Below are positions 53,598 to 60,055 of a stretch of DNA of 64,000 nt, piece after piece. Numbering within the stretch: position 1 is the stretch's first letter; every line of letters starts with the position of its first letter. A program made the position numbers and the translations under genes. A model generated the notes under the pieces. The model had not been told where the DNA came from. It did not search any database and saw only the letters and a list, made by a program, of their open reading frames with translations. The DNA is from Candidatus Ruthia magnifica str. Cm (Calyptogena magnifica) (GTDB lineage: Bacteria; Pseudomonadota; Gammaproteobacteria; PS1; Pseudothioglobaceae), in NCBI RefSeq assembly GCF_000015105.1, contig NC_008610.1, forward strand, positions 248,001 to 312,000, written 5' to 3'.

Positions 53598-53936
53598 ATG
53601 AAATTTGTGACAGCGATTTTAAGACCGCATAAATTAGACGATGTTAGAGAAGCGTTATCCGAAGTTGGTGTGTCTGGTGTAACGGTGACTGAGGTGAAAG
53701 GTTTTGGTCGTCAAAAAGGACACACAGAGTTGTATCGAGGGGCTGAGTATCAAATTGACTTCTTGCCTAAAATTAAATTAGAAGTTGCGATTGAGGCTTC
53801 AAGACTTGATGAAGTGATTGAGGTGATTAGTAATGTGGCTAATTCTGGTAAGGTGGGCGATGGTAAAATTTTTGTGACCAATTTAGACAAGGTGGTTCGT
53901 ATTCGTACAGGAGAAACTGATAAAAACGCGCTTTAA
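53598..53936 (+). CDS. glnK: Nitrogen regulatory protein P-II (GlnK/GlnB)
   Basis: Trimeric signal protein that senses 2-oxoglutarate, ATP/ADP and glutamine status and gates AmtB. It has 112 residues; the T-loop [12 protein letters not shown] contains Tyr51, the uridylylation site, and the B- and C-loop residues (KVGDGKIF, RIRTGE) are intact. The neighbour amtB follows after 10 bases, so GlnK is the likelier role. A second P-II gene with an almost identical T-loop lies at 59708. Confidence 0.95.
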   Translation: MKFVTAILRPHKLDDVREALSEVGVSGVTVTEVKGFGRQKGHTELYRGAEYQIDFLPKIKLEVAIEASRLDEVIEVISNVANSGKVGDGKIFVTNLDKVVRIRTGETDKNAL

Positions 53937-53946
53937 GGAGTTAGTA

Positions 53947-55221
53947 GTGAAGAAAATATTAACAATATTGGCGTGTCTGCCAATGGGCGTGTTTGCACAA
54001 GATATTAACGGCGCTGATACGGCTTGGATAATGACATCAACAGCCTTGGTGTTGTTTATGACATTGCCAGGTTTGGCGTTATTTTATGGTGGGCTAGTTC
54101 GCACTAAGAATATCTTATCAATACTAATGCAGTGTTTTGCTATTGCGGGCATTATAAGTATTTTATGGTTTGTAGTGGGTTATTCTATTGCTTTTTCAGG
54201 TGATAATCCTTACTTTGGTGATTTTTCTAATGTGCTTTTGGTACAAATTAGTATAAATACAGTCAATGGTTCAATTCCAGAATCTTTGTTTGCCGTGTTT
54301 CAAATGACATTTGCCATTATTACTCCAGCTTTGATTATTGGTAGCTATGCAGAAAGAATGAAATTTTCAGCGGTGCTATTATTTAGCTCTATTTGGTTAT
54401 TAGTGGTTTATGCGCCTGTTACGCATTGGGTGTGGGGTGGTGGTTGGCTAGGAAATGTACTTGACTATGCTGGTGGTACAGTTGTTCATATTACTGCAGG
54501 TATTGCAGCGTTAGTAGCGGCTATTGTTTTAGGTCCTAGAAAAGATTTTTTTAAAAAACCTATGCCACCACACAACATGACCATGACTATTACGGGTGCG
54601 GCGATGTTGTGGGTCGGTTGGTTTGGTTTTAATGGTGGTTCTGCTTTGGTAGCAGGCGGCGATGCGGCGATGGCTATTTTGGTGACGCACATCTCAGCAG
54701 CAACGGGTGCGATTACGTGGATGTTTTACGAGTGGATTAAATTTGGTAAACCAACTGCATTAGGTACAGTAACAGGCATGGTTGCAGGCTTGGGAACAAT
54801 CACATCAGCCTCAGGTTTTGTGGGCCCTACAGGCGCTTTAGTGATTGGTTTTATTTCGGGTATTGTGTGTTTTAATGCGGTGATTATCATCAAGCAAAAA
54901 TTTAAAATTGATGATTCATTAGATGTATTTCCTGTGCATGGTGTGGGTGGTATTATTGGCACCTTAATGACAGGATTTTTTGCCTCTAAAGAGTTGGGTA
55001 TTTTTTCTGGACAAGGTGGCTGGGATCGTAAGGCAATTGTGATTGCTGACCAATTACAAATTCAATTTATAGGTGTAGTGGCAACGGTTATTTATACGGC
55101 TGTTGTCACTTATCTTATTCTTAAAGTGGTGGATGCTATAACGGGTTTAAGAGTGAGTGAAGAGGAGGAGCAACAGGGGTTGGATATTGTTTCTCATGAA
55201 GAAAAAGGCTACGATTTGTAA
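53947..55221 (+). CDS. amtB: Ammonium transporter AmtB
   Basis: Trimeric ammonium channel of the inner membrane. The 424-residue product has a signal-like N-terminus ending GVFAQ and 11 membrane helices. Its motifs are DTAWIMTSTALVLFMTLPGLALFYGG, the first pore histidine in THWVWGGGWL, DYAGGTVVHITAG, and the second histidine in FPVHGVGGIIGT. Start is GTG with GGAG 9 bases before it. Cotranscribed with glnK; a strong terminator follows. Confidence 0.95.
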   Translation: MKKILTILACLPMGVFAQDINGADTAWIMTSTALVLFMTLPGLALFYGGLVRTKNILSILMQCFAIAGIISILWFVVGYSIAFSGDNPYFGDFSNVLLVQISINTVNGSIPESLFAVFQMTFAIITPALIIGSYAERMKFSAVLLFSSIWLLVVYAPVTHWVWGGGWLGNVLDYAGGTVVHITAGIAALVAAIVLGPRKDFFKKPMPPHNMTMTITGAAMLWVGWFGFNGGSALVAGGDAAMAILVTHISAATGAITWMFYEWIKFGKPTALGTVTGMVAGLGTITSASGFVGPTGALVIGFISGIVCFNAVIIIKQKFKIDDSLDVFPVHGVGGIIGTLMTGFFASKELGIFSGQGGWDRKAIVIADQLQIQFIGVVATVIYTAVVTYLILKVVDAITGLRVSEEEEQQGLDIVSHEEKGYDL

Positions 55222-55237: not shown

Positions 55238-55270
55238 CCTGCTAATTGTTAGGTCATTAGCAGGTTTTTT
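55238..55270 (+). terminator. Rho-independent terminator after amtB
   Basis: Perfect 9-base stem CCTGCTAAT (55238-55246) and ATTAGCAGG (55256-55264), a 9-base loop and six T (55265-55270). Ends the glnK-amtB transcript 16 bases after the stop. Confidence 0.9.
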
Positions 55271-55300
55271 ATGTTGATAAAAATAGATTCGTATATAATG

Positions 55301-55460
55301 AAACCACTGCATTAAACTCATCACAACTTATGAAACACATAAAACAACACATTTTTTATCCAAAAACTCGTAAAATAGCTGACTATTCTTCTCATTTTTG
55401 GATAAAAAATGTGCTATATTCTACATTTCATAAGTTGTGATGAGTTTAATGCAGTGGTTT
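55301..55460. repeat. 160-bp long inverted-repeat element
   Basis: Two perfectly complementary 35-base arms form the ends: 55301-55335 (begins AAACCACTGCATTAAACTC) and 55426-55460 (ends GAGTTTAATGCAGTGGTTT). Inside, after 12 unpaired bases on each side, a second perfect 19-base pair lies at 55348-55366 and 55395-55413, enclosing a 28-base loop. The whole is symmetric about its centre and encodes nothing. It ends 35 bases before the dapA start. Size and shape suggest a MITE-like or other mobile palindromic unit. No clean target duplication or second copy was seen in the window. Confidence 0.85.
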
Positions 55461-55495
55461 TAATTCGCATTAGTTTATTTTAATAAATAATTAAA

Positions 55496-56386
55496 GTGCG
55501 CATAAATCATCCACTAACTGGCTCAATAGTCGCTCTAATCACTCCAATGTTTGATGATGGGTCGATAGATTTTGGTGTGTTAAAATCGTTGGTGGCGTTT
55601 CATATTGATTCTGGCACTAAAGCAATTGTCTCGATGGGTACGACAGGTGAGAGTGCAACGCTTAATCAGGATGAGCATATTGAAGTGATACGGGCAACGA
55701 TTGAATTTGCCAATTCACGTATTCCAATCATTGCTAGCACGGGTGCAAATTCGACTTCTGAAGCTATTGAACTTACTAAAGCTGCTAAAGTAATTGGTGC
55801 AGATGCTTGTCTTTTAGTCACACCGTATTATAATAGACCGACTCAAGAAGGGCTATATCAGCATTATAAGTTGATTGCTGAAACAGTAGATATTGATCAA
55901 ATTTTATATAATGTGCCCAGTAGAACGGCAGTTGATCTCTGTGTAGAAACAGTACTTCGTTTGTCCAACATTGATAATATCATCGGTATTAAAGATGCAA
56001 CGGGTGATTTGAATGTTGCAAAGGCATTGATTGAACAATGTGCGGATGATTTTTTGTTTTATAGCGGTGATGATGCAACAGCGGTTGAATTTATTTTAAT
56101 GGGCGGGCATGGTGGTATTTCTGTAACGGCTAATATTACACCAAAGCAGGTGGCTTCTGCTTATCAATTTGCACTTGAGAATGACAGGGAATTAGCAGAA
56201 TCAACCAATGCACCATTAGCTGATTTGCATCAACATTTGTTTATTGAGTCTAATCCAATTCCCATTAAATGGGCAATGTTTAAAATGGGTAAGTGTAATA
56301 ATGGTATTCGCTTACCCTTAATGATATTATCACAACAAGCTCAAGCAATGTTAGAGCAAGATTTATCCAATTTAGGAATTATATAA
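55496..56386 (+). CDS. dapA: 4-hydroxy-tetrahydrodipicolinate synthase DapA
   Basis: Condenses pyruvate with aspartate semialdehyde, the first committed step to lysine and diaminopimelate. The 296-residue TIM-barrel protein has TGSIVALITPM at the N-terminus, GTTGESATL near residue 45, the tyrosine in LYNVPSRTAVD near 138 and the Schiff-base lysine in IIGIKDATGD near 166. Start is GTG because no ATG or clear ribosome site lies near the conserved N-terminus. Followed by bamC after 2 bases, as in E. coli. Confidence 0.96.
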   Translation: MRINHPLTGSIVALITPMFDDGSIDFGVLKSLVAFHIDSGTKAIVSMGTTGESATLNQDEHIEVIRATIEFANSRIPIIASTGANSTSEAIELTKAAKVIGADACLLVTPYYNRPTQEGLYQHYKLIAETVDIDQILYNVPSRTAVDLCVETVLRLSNIDNIIGIKDATGDLNVAKALIEQCADDFLFYSGDDATAVEFILMGGHGGISVTANITPKQVASAYQFALENDRELAESTNAPLADLHQHLFIESNPIPIKWAMFKMGKCNNGIRLPLMILSQQAQAMLEQDLSNLGII

Positions 56387-57515: not shown

Positions 57516-59411
57516 GTGACGCTGTTACAAGACATTGTTAATAAACTCATCTATCAGGAGATATTGGTGGATGAGTTATCAGATGAAGAATTAGCACAAT
57601 TTTGCCAAATAGCCAATCTAGCTTATCGAGCTGGAAAGCCTATTATTAGCGACCAAGATTATGATTTTATTTATCTTGATGCACTTAAAAATAGAGACCC
57701 AGATAATCTGTTATTCAAATTCATAGAGACAGAGGGACAGTCTTTTTCTGAGGAAAAAGTCTTATTACCAGAGGCGATGCTTTCCATTGATAAGGCATAT
57801 TCATGGGATGAAATAAGTAAATGGATAAAGCGGTTAGAAAAATCAGCCATGCAGATTAGTTTAGATTTGAGTGCCATTCAAATTAAAGCCACGCCTAAAC
57901 TAGACGGTTTTTCTGGATTTGATGATGGTAGTCGGCTTTACACACGAGGTGATGGGAAAAAAGGCAGTGATATTTCCAGAGTATTCGAGCGAGGTTTGTG
58001 TGTTTTTAATGATGCTGAGCGTGGACTTGGTGCGGGTGAAATTGTGATTAAGAAAAGCTATTTTAAGAAATATTTAGCACATAGTTTTGAATATCCACGT
58101 AATTTTCAAGCCAGTCTTATTAAAGAAAAAGCCTTAGATGAGCAAGCTCAAAAGGCTATTATAGATAAGGCTGCTTTGTTTATTCCGTTTATTAAATTAC
58201 CTACTTGGTCAGGTCTTGTAGCTGAATTAGTTGCTAAATTTGATCAAATTGTTGCTCAGGTATTGGTGATGGTAGATTTTGATGTAGATGGCGTAGTTTT
58301 TGAGGCAATTAATACTGATTTAAAAACACAGATGGGTGCTAATCGAAAATTTCATCGTTGGCAAATTGCCTTTAAAGAAAACAAAGACAAAGCACACGTT
58401 AAAGTACTCAACGTGATACCTCAAGTAGGGCGTAGTGGAAAAATAACCCCAGTAGTAGAGCTAGAACCTACTTTGTTAAGTGGTGCAACTATTATGCGCG
58501 CAACAGGGCATAATTATGGTTTGGTGAAAGAGCAAGGTCTTGGTGTGGGTAGTGTGGTTGAGTTAACTCGTTCTGGACTGGTTATCCCTAAAATTATATT
58601 CGTATTAAAGCCTATGCCTGTTGATATTCCTGATAATTGCCCAAGTTGTGATAAGCCACTTGTTTGGAAGTCAGATTTTCTCACGTGCATTAATCATAAA
58701 AATTGCCCTGCTCAAATTATTGGGAAAATGGCCTATTTTTTTAAGATATTGGCTAATAATGATGGTTTTGGTATTGCCACTATTGAAAAGCTATATGCAC
58801 ATGATATTAGGTCAGTTTCACAAATTTATGCTTTAAATATAGAAGATTTAGTAACAATAGGATTTGGTGAAAAAACCAGTATGAATCTTATTAATCAGCT
58901 AAATCGCTCTGTTAGTGAGCAGGTTGAAGACTGGCGTTTTTTAGCAGCATTTGGCATGCATAGAATGGGTTTAGGTAATTGCGAAAACCTTTTAAAGTCC
59001 CATCATTTGAATGATATTTTTGATTTAAATTTAAAAGAAATAGCTAATATTGATGGCTTTGCCGAATTAACAGGACAAATAATTGTACAAGGATTAATCT
59101 CTATTGCTGATGAGTTTAATCATATATATCAATATGGTTTTAATTTAGAAACAACCATACTAACTAAAGACTTACAAACATTAACACATGAATTATTTGA
59201 TAAAAAAATTGTTTTTACTGGCAAAATGAACCATTCAAGAGATGATATGAAAAAACATGCCAAGTCAATTGGCATTAAAGTTTCAACTTCTATTAGTGCT
59301 AAAATAGATTACTTAGTCATTGGTGATAAAGTTGGACAAAAAAAAATCAAAGATGCTGAAAAATTTGGTGTGGTAGTGATGACTGAAACTGATTATTTAT
59401 CTAAAATTTAA
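57516..59411 (+). CDS. ligA: NAD-dependent DNA ligase (LigA-type), divergent
   Basis: NAD+-dependent DNA ligase that seals nicks during replication and repair. The 631 residues show the Ia domain (GKPIISDQDYDF), MLSIDKAY, the adenylation motif KLDG with K128, YTRGDG, GAGE with E175, YPRN, VDGVV, RWQIAFK with K287, an OB fold (VGRSGKITPVVELEPTLLSG), a four-cysteine zinc finger (CPSCDKP...CINHKNCPAQ), HhH repeats and a C-terminal BRCT domain. It is shorter than E. coli LigA (671). Motif IV reads DGVVFEA, so the normally essential lysine is E263. GTG start. A hairpin terminator follows. Confidence 0.85.
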   Translation: MTLLQDIVNKLIYQEILVDELSDEELAQFCQIANLAYRAGKPIISDQDYDFIYLDALKNRDPDNLLFKFIETEGQSFSEEKVLLPEAMLSIDKAYSWDEISKWIKRLEKSAMQISLDLSAIQIKATPKLDGFSGFDDGSRLYTRGDGKKGSDISRVFERGLCVFNDAERGLGAGEIVIKKSYFKKYLAHSFEYPRNFQASLIKEKALDEQAQKAIIDKAALFIPFIKLPTWSGLVAELVAKFDQIVAQVLVMVDFDVDGVVFEAINTDLKTQMGANRKFHRWQIAFKENKDKAHVKVLNVIPQVGRSGKITPVVELEPTLLSGATIMRATGHNYGLVKEQGLGVGSVVELTRSGLVIPKIIFVLKPMPVDIPDNCPSCDKPLVWKSDFLTCINHKNCPAQIIGKMAYFFKILANNDGFGIATIEKLYAHDIRSVSQIYALNIEDLVTIGFGEKTSMNLINQLNRSVSEQVEDWRFLAAFGMHRMGLGNCENLLKSHHLNDIFDLNLKEIANIDGFAELTGQIIVQGLISIADEFNHIYQYGFNLETTILTKDLQTLTHELFDKKIVFTGKMNHSRDDMKKHAKSIGIKVSTSISAKIDYLVIGDKVGQKKIKDAEKFGVVVMTETDYLSKI

Positions 59412-59446
59412 CCACGTAATAAATGAGTACAAATGGTACTCATGAT

Positions 59447-59487
59447 AAAATTGCACTATTTTTTAATAAAAAAAATAGTGCAATTTT
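59447..59487 (+). terminator. Rho-independent terminator after ligA
   Basis: Perfect 18-base stem: 59447-59464 (AAAATTGCACTATTTTTT) pairs with 59470-59487, with a 5-base loop and T-rich sequence after it. A smaller hairpin, ATGAGTAC/GTACTCAT with loop AAATG (59423-59443), sits just upstream. Confidence 0.8.
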
Positions 59488-59516
59488 ATTTTTATGATTA
59501 TAATTACTAGTGGTTT

Positions 59517-59707: not shown

Positions 59708-60055
59708 ATGAAAATGATAATAGCAATTATTAAGCCGTTTAAGCTTGATAATGTTATAGAAGCTCTTTCTGACATTGGTGTTTCAGGCATTACAGCTACA
59801 GAAGTCAAAGGCTTTGGTCGTCAAAAAGGACACACAGAGCTTTATCGTGGTGCAGAATATACGGTAGATTTTTTACCTAAAGTTAAACTAGAAATTGCCA
59901 TTGCAGCAAATCAAGTTGATGGTGTGGTTGAGATTATCAGAGTTGCTGCTAAATCAGAAGGAGAGGGTAAGATTGGTGATGGAAAAATATTTGTTTCATC
60001 ATTAGATCAAGTATTTCGTATTCGTACGGGTGAAATTGGTTCAGTAGCACTATAA
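59708..60055 (+). CDS. glnK: Second nitrogen regulatory protein P-II (GlnK-type)
   Basis: 115-residue P-II protein with intact T-loop ([11 protein letters not shown], Tyr51), B-loop and C-terminal RIRTGE. It has an AAGGAG ribosome site 7 bases before the ATG. It is an intact paralogue of the gene at 53598; the central T-loop codons are identical over 27 bases. It precedes a dead amtB copy, with that gene's ribosome site still spanning the glnK2 stop, so it was once the head of a glnK-amtB-porin operon. Whether it still has a partner is unclear. Confidence 0.93.

Follow-up and report, generated by a model that had tools for sequence, protein, structure and literature searches.

A perfect palindrome before dapA in Candidatus Ruthia magnifica as a probable relic of a MITE-like family with one core and five end types

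The long perfect palindrome that stands before dapA in Candidatus Ruthia magnifica is, in our judgment with high confidence, a relic copy of a MITE-like family. Across this family, one core bears two classes of ends, the two ends of a copy agree with each other, and the ends have changed far more than the core. We consider the full account likely, namely that a MITE of a family for which we found no earlier description was moved by IS5-family machinery, had one arm copied onto the other, and now forms the leader of dapA. Searches of top-ranked, mainly open-licence literature returned no published account of this element, or of MITEs in Ruthia, Thioglobus or Bathymodiolus symbionts, which does not prove absence from print.

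The palindrome and its setting before dapA

The window analyzed here is a stretch of 64,000 nucleotides from a genome that consists of a single contig of 1,160,782 bases. In a scan of the window for arms of at least 14 bases whose starts lie at most 400 bases apart, the palindrome was the longest perfect inverted repeat. The preliminary description had reported perfect arms of 35 and 19 bases with equal 12-base spacers, lying between the amtB terminator and the GTG start of dapA; exact coordinates bear out the geometry, and Pfam matches confirm both genes, the terminator stem being seen by eye (Table 1). A promoter and terminator scan returned neither this stem nor the conserved TATAAT; it covered loops of 3–8 only, and the loop of the stem is longer. 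Arms of 105 nt across the palindrome region pair at 77%, and a 226-nt region folds as RNA at −85.8 kcal/mol on the + strand (z = −14.66) and −94.4 kcal/mol on the − strand (z = −15.00), with 0 of 200 shuffles as low in either case. The runner-up perfect inverted repeat (59445–59489; 20 bp with a 5-nt loop), possibly a terminator, lies between the ORF at 57516–59411 and a PII-like ORF at 59708–60055. The latter is the second of two PII-like ORFs, alike by eye, that flank the amtB–dapA region, the other being at 53598–53936.

Table 1. Coordinates of the palindrome, its parts and the neighboring features in the window
Feature	Position	Strand	Basis
amtB-like ammonium transporter gene, upstream	53947..55221	+	ORF; Pfam Ammonium_transp PF00909, E 3.6e-119
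Terminator-like stem CCTGCTAAT/ATTAGCAGG with T run, 3' of amtB	55238..55270	+	read by eye
−10-like TATAAT in the stretch TCGTATATAAT; putative promoter element	55294..55299	+	conserved in position across the 12 congeneric genomes, with or without the element
Flanking repeat AAT, left copy, 3 bp	55297..55299	+	filled versus empty sites
Whole element, 162 nt, type-A ends (GAAACCACTGCATTAA..); very likely a relic MITE copy	55300..55461	+	family comparison
Left outer arm, 35 bp, perfect: terminal inverted repeat and core start; one genome-specific inserted A	55301..55335	+	sequence and inverted-repeat scan
Left spacer, 12 nt, unpaired in this copy	55336..55347	+	
Left inner arm, 19 bp, perfect; 2 genome-specific changes	55348..55366	+	sequence and inverted-repeat scan
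Apical loop, 28 nt; small hairpin AATAG (55374–55378)/CTATT (55383–55387)	55367..55394	+	
Right inner arm, 19 bp, perfect; 3 genome-specific changes	55395..55413	+	sequence and inverted-repeat scan
Right spacer, 12 nt	55414..55425	+	
Right outer arm, 35 bp, perfect; 4 substitutions and 1 insertion genome-specific; apparently rewritten from the left arm	55426..55460	+	sequence and inverted-repeat scan
Flanking repeat AAT, right copy	55462..55464	+	filled versus empty sites
dapA, GTG start, downstream gene	55496..56386	+	ORF; Pfam DHDPS PF00701, E 2e-97; orthologues

A dispersed family of related elements

A search of the genome and its relatives for the 35-base arm had been proposed earlier; a blastn search with a 171-bp region uncovered a dispersed, multi-copy family, with matches in 15 of 58 genomes, several of them with many copies (a palindrome is counted on both of its strands). 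Within the bacterial family, a covariance model of the core matched 25 of 83 genomes, spread over 4 of 11 genera (again with both strands counted). Over a sample of the class, this model matched 4 of 185 genomes: R. magnifica itself, one congener, and G179 and G212 from two other gammaproteobacterial families. Within the R. magnifica genome, further blastn matches were limited to two weaker relatives, one a 35-nt piece at 1,109,617 and the other a decayed copy at 614,586–614,719. The decayed copy (locus L096, genome 614100–615200, element at about 484–624) lies upstream of a gene that by eye is parE-like; flank and copy recur in G006 (L100), G007 (L061) and G011 (L091), and this looks like another shared old insertion.

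Bounded elements, comprising the R. magnifica copy and 42 others once decayed or unbounded copies were left out, span 145–190 nt. The suggestion that the palindrome is a MITE is upheld by the multi-copy family, its terminal inverted repeats and target duplications, and the lack of a coding signal; an empty orthologous site was found before dapA, the one site compared. A blastn search with one 160-bp family copy as query found no match on phages or plasmids, and viral contigs gave no match to one degenerate pattern, an insensitive one that found only 12 stretches in genome contigs. Some copies (L056, L059, L060, L068–L070, L072, L073, L076–L083, L087 and L094) carry extra small hairpins of about 10–30 nt inserted at a small number of recurring core positions, as though stems could be added with mobility retained.

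We weighed three other readings of what the palindrome is. Using RNAalifold on 21 of the 43 bounded elements, we obtained 43 consensus pairs, 23 of them with compensatory double changes; double-change cells numbered 120, compared with a mean of 38.6 after shuffling (the shuffles ignore relatedness) and at most 28 when the partner was slid. Such covariation could reflect RNA function in a family of structured RNA genes or riboregulators. The copies, however, are dispersed with target duplications and matched ends, and the element matches no Rfam family at the gathering score; the best hits, to models of long miRNA hairpins, fall far short of the cut-offs (across the window region and 14 loci, only a flanking tRNA passes). 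Moreover, copying between inverted repeats yields the same covariation, and an RNA gene family is therefore very unlikely. Because arm copying mimics covariation, the signal demonstrates that likeness between the arms is maintained; it does not demonstrate that an RNA is used. Certain mismatches recur at fixed positions whatever the end type, a hint that the asymmetric hairpin is itself important to the element; the R. magnifica copy no longer has these mismatches. A small protein gene has almost no claim: an ATG-initiated frame (MKHIKQHLF...) occurs in several copies and many show an open frame on visual inspection, but variation at the three codon positions is about equal (0.116, 0.125 and 0.108 over an alignment of 26 copies), the G024 copies examined have an early stop in frame, and neither of two peptides tried matched Pfam. 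On the flat codon-position variation and the lack of a Pfam match for these two peptides, we rejected the coding reading of the core. Finally, assemblers can be misled by long perfect palindromes, and the structure might be an assembly or sequencing artifact at a hairpin. We regard this as highly improbable, as an element lies at the same site in three other genomes, though with imperfect arms there, and a foldback artifact should have made the 12-nt spacers complementary, which they are not.

Insertion at dapA and pairing of the arms

To place the MITE-like element in time, filled and empty sites were compared. Of 12 congeneric genomes, four have a filled dapA site, namely R. magnifica (G000), G002, G010 and G007; the remaining 8 have an empty one, in which TATAAT runs uninterrupted into the dapA leader. 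The site is also empty in six genomes of four other genera, for which sequences in the right orientation were compared. The filled genomes have in common the derived left end GAAACC and the AAT repeat, making a single insertion most likely. As judged from these comparisons, the insertion is old, not fresh, and shared with three congeners; the element would have entered between the −10-like box and the dapA coding region in an ancestor of the R. magnifica symbiont and the three sampled relatives. A recent move, as the preliminary description had entertained, is thus disfavored: the insertion sits at the same base in three congeners, and the single IS5 transposase fragment used as a query finds no match in the R. 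magnifica genome, which fits an element that is dead there. Nor did we find a single copy conserved in all relatives, the pattern that would have spoken against mobility; 8 of the 11 congeners are empty, and several relatives are multi-copy. Two observations complicate the picture. On a local tree of 3,884 flank columns, the filled genomes are not one clade, such that this tree, in which one fork behind the pattern has only 54% support, calls for a minimum of two precise losses or for exchange of the region. In addition, the flanking repeat at dapA is 3 bp, not 5 bp, which counts against the account given here.

TATAAT ends one base before the left arm and is present with and without the element; the TCGTATATAAT stretch around it also occurs in four of the six genomes of other genera compared in the right orientation. 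From this position, the dapA transcript should begin within the left arm, a few bases from its edge, and the element thus probably forms the 5' leader of the dapA mRNA in R. magnifica, where a very stable hairpin may shield the 5' end. The element folds at −78.9 kcal/mol in R. magnifica versus −42.5, −37.4 and −34.9 kcal/mol in three orthologous copies. A strong RNA structure in the dapA leader, as had been suggested, is likely, given that the conserved TATAAT stops a single base short of the left arm; the companion suggestion, that the palindrome disturbs the dapA promoter, is improbable as far as the −10 box is concerned, this box being intact.

We then compared pairing between the arms across copies. 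Complementarity of the outer arms, taken over 36-nt ends, is 0.97 in the R. magnifica copy (one terminal base is unpaired), 0.83 in the next of the 43 bounded elements, and 0.81, 0.78 and 0.69 in the three orthologues. None of 54 arm pairs is unpaired in the R. magnifica copy, compared with 9–16 in 20 other aligned copies, in each of which one unpaired pair is the inserted pair absent there. Ten pairs are paired in at most 40% of the other copies; they comprise the inserted pair and nine mainly A-C, C-A, T-C or C-T mismatches at the same places. We counted 15 genome-specific changes within 55301–55460. Eleven lie in the arms, the right outer arm alone having 5 of them, and each outer arm shows a 1-nt insertion in a mirrored A/T run. 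For 8 of the 11 arm changes, the pair concerned is unpaired in every one of the four references; for the other three, two of the four references have it paired. That all 11 now pair is forced by the perfect arms, the informative part being the prior unpaired state. When 14 random substitutions were placed on a conservative ancestor with nine mismatches, 0 of 200,000 runs became perfect and the best retained six unpaired positions, under a simple uniform model.

Template switching between the arms is the simplest cause of their perfection and fits these data best; we hold it to be probably the main one. The changes are lineage-specific and clustered and restore arm complementarity, as in quasipalindrome correction. 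A template switch during replication would, after the insertion, have copied one arm onto the other, turning the imperfect hairpin of the family into one with two blocks of perfect arm pairing. Changes in the inner arms run in both directions, and at least two events, or some selection for pairing, are therefore assumed; the mirrored insertions occupy short A/T runs and might have arisen by two separate slips, which counts against arm copying. The earlier notion of a recombination product survives in the sense that the perfect arms look like in-place arm-to-arm copying. Template switching is documented in E. coli as a process that perfects quasipalindromes (PMC7202029), and a role for it in the origin and upkeep of RNA hairpins has been proposed (PMC8794818).

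Ends, core and candidate partner insertion sequences

To compare ends with cores, we scored the 19-nt ends of 85 copies with a locatable core, leaving out copies in genome listings whose sequence was not retrieved and the decayed loci L049, L061, L067, L071, L074, L075, L084, L091, L095–L101, L207, L209, L212, L217 and L340. Five end types were recognized: A (GAGACCACTGCATTAACCC), B (GRGACTGTTGAATATTGAA), C (GGGCACCYCCAAAAACCCC), D (GAGACCTTTGCATAAWTCA) and E (GGGCATCTCTAAAAATAGG). Both ends were of the same type in 70 of the 85 copies, and one or both were unclassified in 14; the single nominal discordance, L088, is due to a 1-nt deletion in the end. The 15 copies without both ends of one type were excluded from the identities, core trees and target-duplication counts that follow. 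Between types, the cores of about 121 nt are on average 74–85% identical and the left ends 28–62%; within types, the figures are 83–90% for cores and 67–87% for ends. The most alike end pairs are A-D (59%) and C-E (62%), which arranges the five types in two classes, GAGAC (A, B and D) and GGGCA (C and E).

The two classes also differ in the length of the target duplication. Exact 5-bp duplications flank 11 of 13 type-D, 6 of 26 type-A and 2 of 8 type-B copies (19 of 47 in total), with 6 of the 8 type-B copies matching at four or more of the five bases; no C or E copy (n = 23) has one. Exact 4-bp duplications flank 14 of 20 type-C and all 3 type-E copies (17 of 23). Overall, 26 of the 70 copies, including 13 of the 26 of type A, have no exact repeat of 3 bp or more. 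On a tree of the 70 cores, which rests on 121 columns and leaves many forks unresolved, the five types need seven changes (minimum 4, shuffled mean 37.1) and the two classes three (shuffled mean 19.5). The data do not reject a GGGCA class that arose only once (AU p = 0.267), and one class switch suffices. End types are mixed within genomes in G031 (A and B), G014 (B and C) and G023 (A and C).

Candidate partners were found among the insertion sequences of relatives. IS5-type elements with ends GAGACCTTTGCATAAA and 5-bp duplications occur in G003 (L251 and L258) and G031 (L245), and a high-copy IS5-type element in G087 has ends AAGACCCCTGCATTAAAC and, by eye, 5-bp duplications in 10 of the 12 copies viewed; when tested against NCBIfam NF033581 (IS5 family), a G031 transposase and a G087 transposase both passed. 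The type-A end differs from the G087 end at 2 of 16 bases. By this likeness, IS5-family elements of relatives would explain, in kind, end types D and A. An IS5-family transposase acting in trans would have moved the element through its GAGACCACTGCATTAA-type ends, to judge from the end sequence and the target-duplication length. A pattern search of eight genomes found no insertion sequence with C-type ends, and one further insertion sequence of G087 has different ends. G087 (2.8 Mb), which exceeds in size all other genomes of its family that were searched, holds 27 matches to one IS5-type transposase with a 341-aa frame and three of other lengths, as well as eight matches to a second DDE transposase with frames of 432–474 aa.

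These observations raise the possibility that the lasting mobile unit is the core itself, a quasi-palindrome of about 121 nt with conserved mismatches that swaps both ends between transposition systems. This is a tentative reading, less likely than not and lowered in its odds by the single switch between end classes that is not rejected. Equally tentative are its further elements: a new end gained on one side would be copied to the other because the two halves template each other in replication, and the element might in this way re-equip for whichever insertion sequence is active in the host. The element is known today from at least three gammaproteobacterial families. On this view, the perfect arms in R. 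magnifica could record the same kind of copying at a stage when mobility had already gone, although this too is conjectural. Arm-to-arm copying is in any case a plausible way for both ends to change together.

Both roles assigned to arm copying have competitors. At dapA, the arms might have been perfected by selection rather than template switching, pairing mutations being favored singly in a hairpin useful as a leader. The transcript start expected in the left arm, the much lower folding energy of the R. magnifica copy and the inner-arm changes in both directions accord with this, but the genome-specific changes include 1-nt insertions in mirrored runs of both arms, and the orthologues in G002, G010 and G007 remained imperfect while eight congeners have no element at all, and we consider selection a rather unlikely main cause. 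Concerning the ends, exchange by inverted-repeat-replacing transposition or MITE-MITE recombination, or faster divergence within a class, could stand in place of arm copying, a possibility that we likewise hold only tentatively. Two end-only mini-palindromes of about 28 bp in G031 would suit end replacement, and inverted-repeat-replacing transposition has been proposed for IS1272, which inserts into inverted repeats without target duplications (PMC5678879, available text); the present copies, unlike the IS1272 insertions described there, have target duplications. The remaining likeness of A to D and of C to E, together with the sufficiency of one class switch, suits divergence, but gradual change alone fails to explain a shift from 5-bp to 4-bp duplications on one core. 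The mini-palindromes themselves (L214, 604–631; L216, about 1985–2012) consist of type-A ends with no core and may be deletion products or possible landing sites.

MITEs are usually seen as crippled copies of one parent insertion sequence, whose ends they retain and to whose transposase they are tied. With IS5-family-derived MITEs the present family shares short, non-coding elements, terminal inverted repeats, short target duplications and many copies, and its A and D ends resemble IS5-family insertion sequences of relatives; it differs in having one quasi-palindromic core with five ends in two classes and two duplication lengths. REP/REPIN and ERIC repeats are likewise intergenic, palindromic and imperfectly paired, but to our knowledge they come without 4–5 bp target duplications and IS-like ends. 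The REPIN/RAYT system, as far as we know, is mobile without target duplication; the target duplications of the family copies set them apart from it. Processes known as quasipalindrome-correcting template switches, in E. coli reporters and in the evolution of RNA hairpins, also turn imperfect pairing into perfect pairing by clustered, arm-templated changes; here, the process is one we infer over evolutionary time, in a mobile element of a symbiont and over 35 + 19 bp. In Cardinium, a MITE derived from IS982 has been described (PMC9769881), comparable in that a MITE family spreads in a symbiont genome beside its parental insertion sequence and different in the IS family and in the single parental insertion sequence, with no end exchange mentioned in the available text. 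The available text of a review (PMC10969869) yielded no mention of chimeric MITEs or of one core with different TIRs.

A core that remains recognizable while both ends and the duplication length change implies that a non-autonomous element can switch transposition systems. The R. magnifica copy offers a natural bacterial example of apparent arm-to-arm copying, and with it a concrete, testable mechanism for end switching. The empty site, imperfect hairpin and perfect hairpin before dapA form a natural series suited to testing the effect of a long 5' hairpin on expression. Apart from the family itself, G014 holds another MITE-like repeat of about 160 bp (L221 and L222) with ends GAGACCCCTGCATTAG and a different interior, a case of one end class with several interiors.
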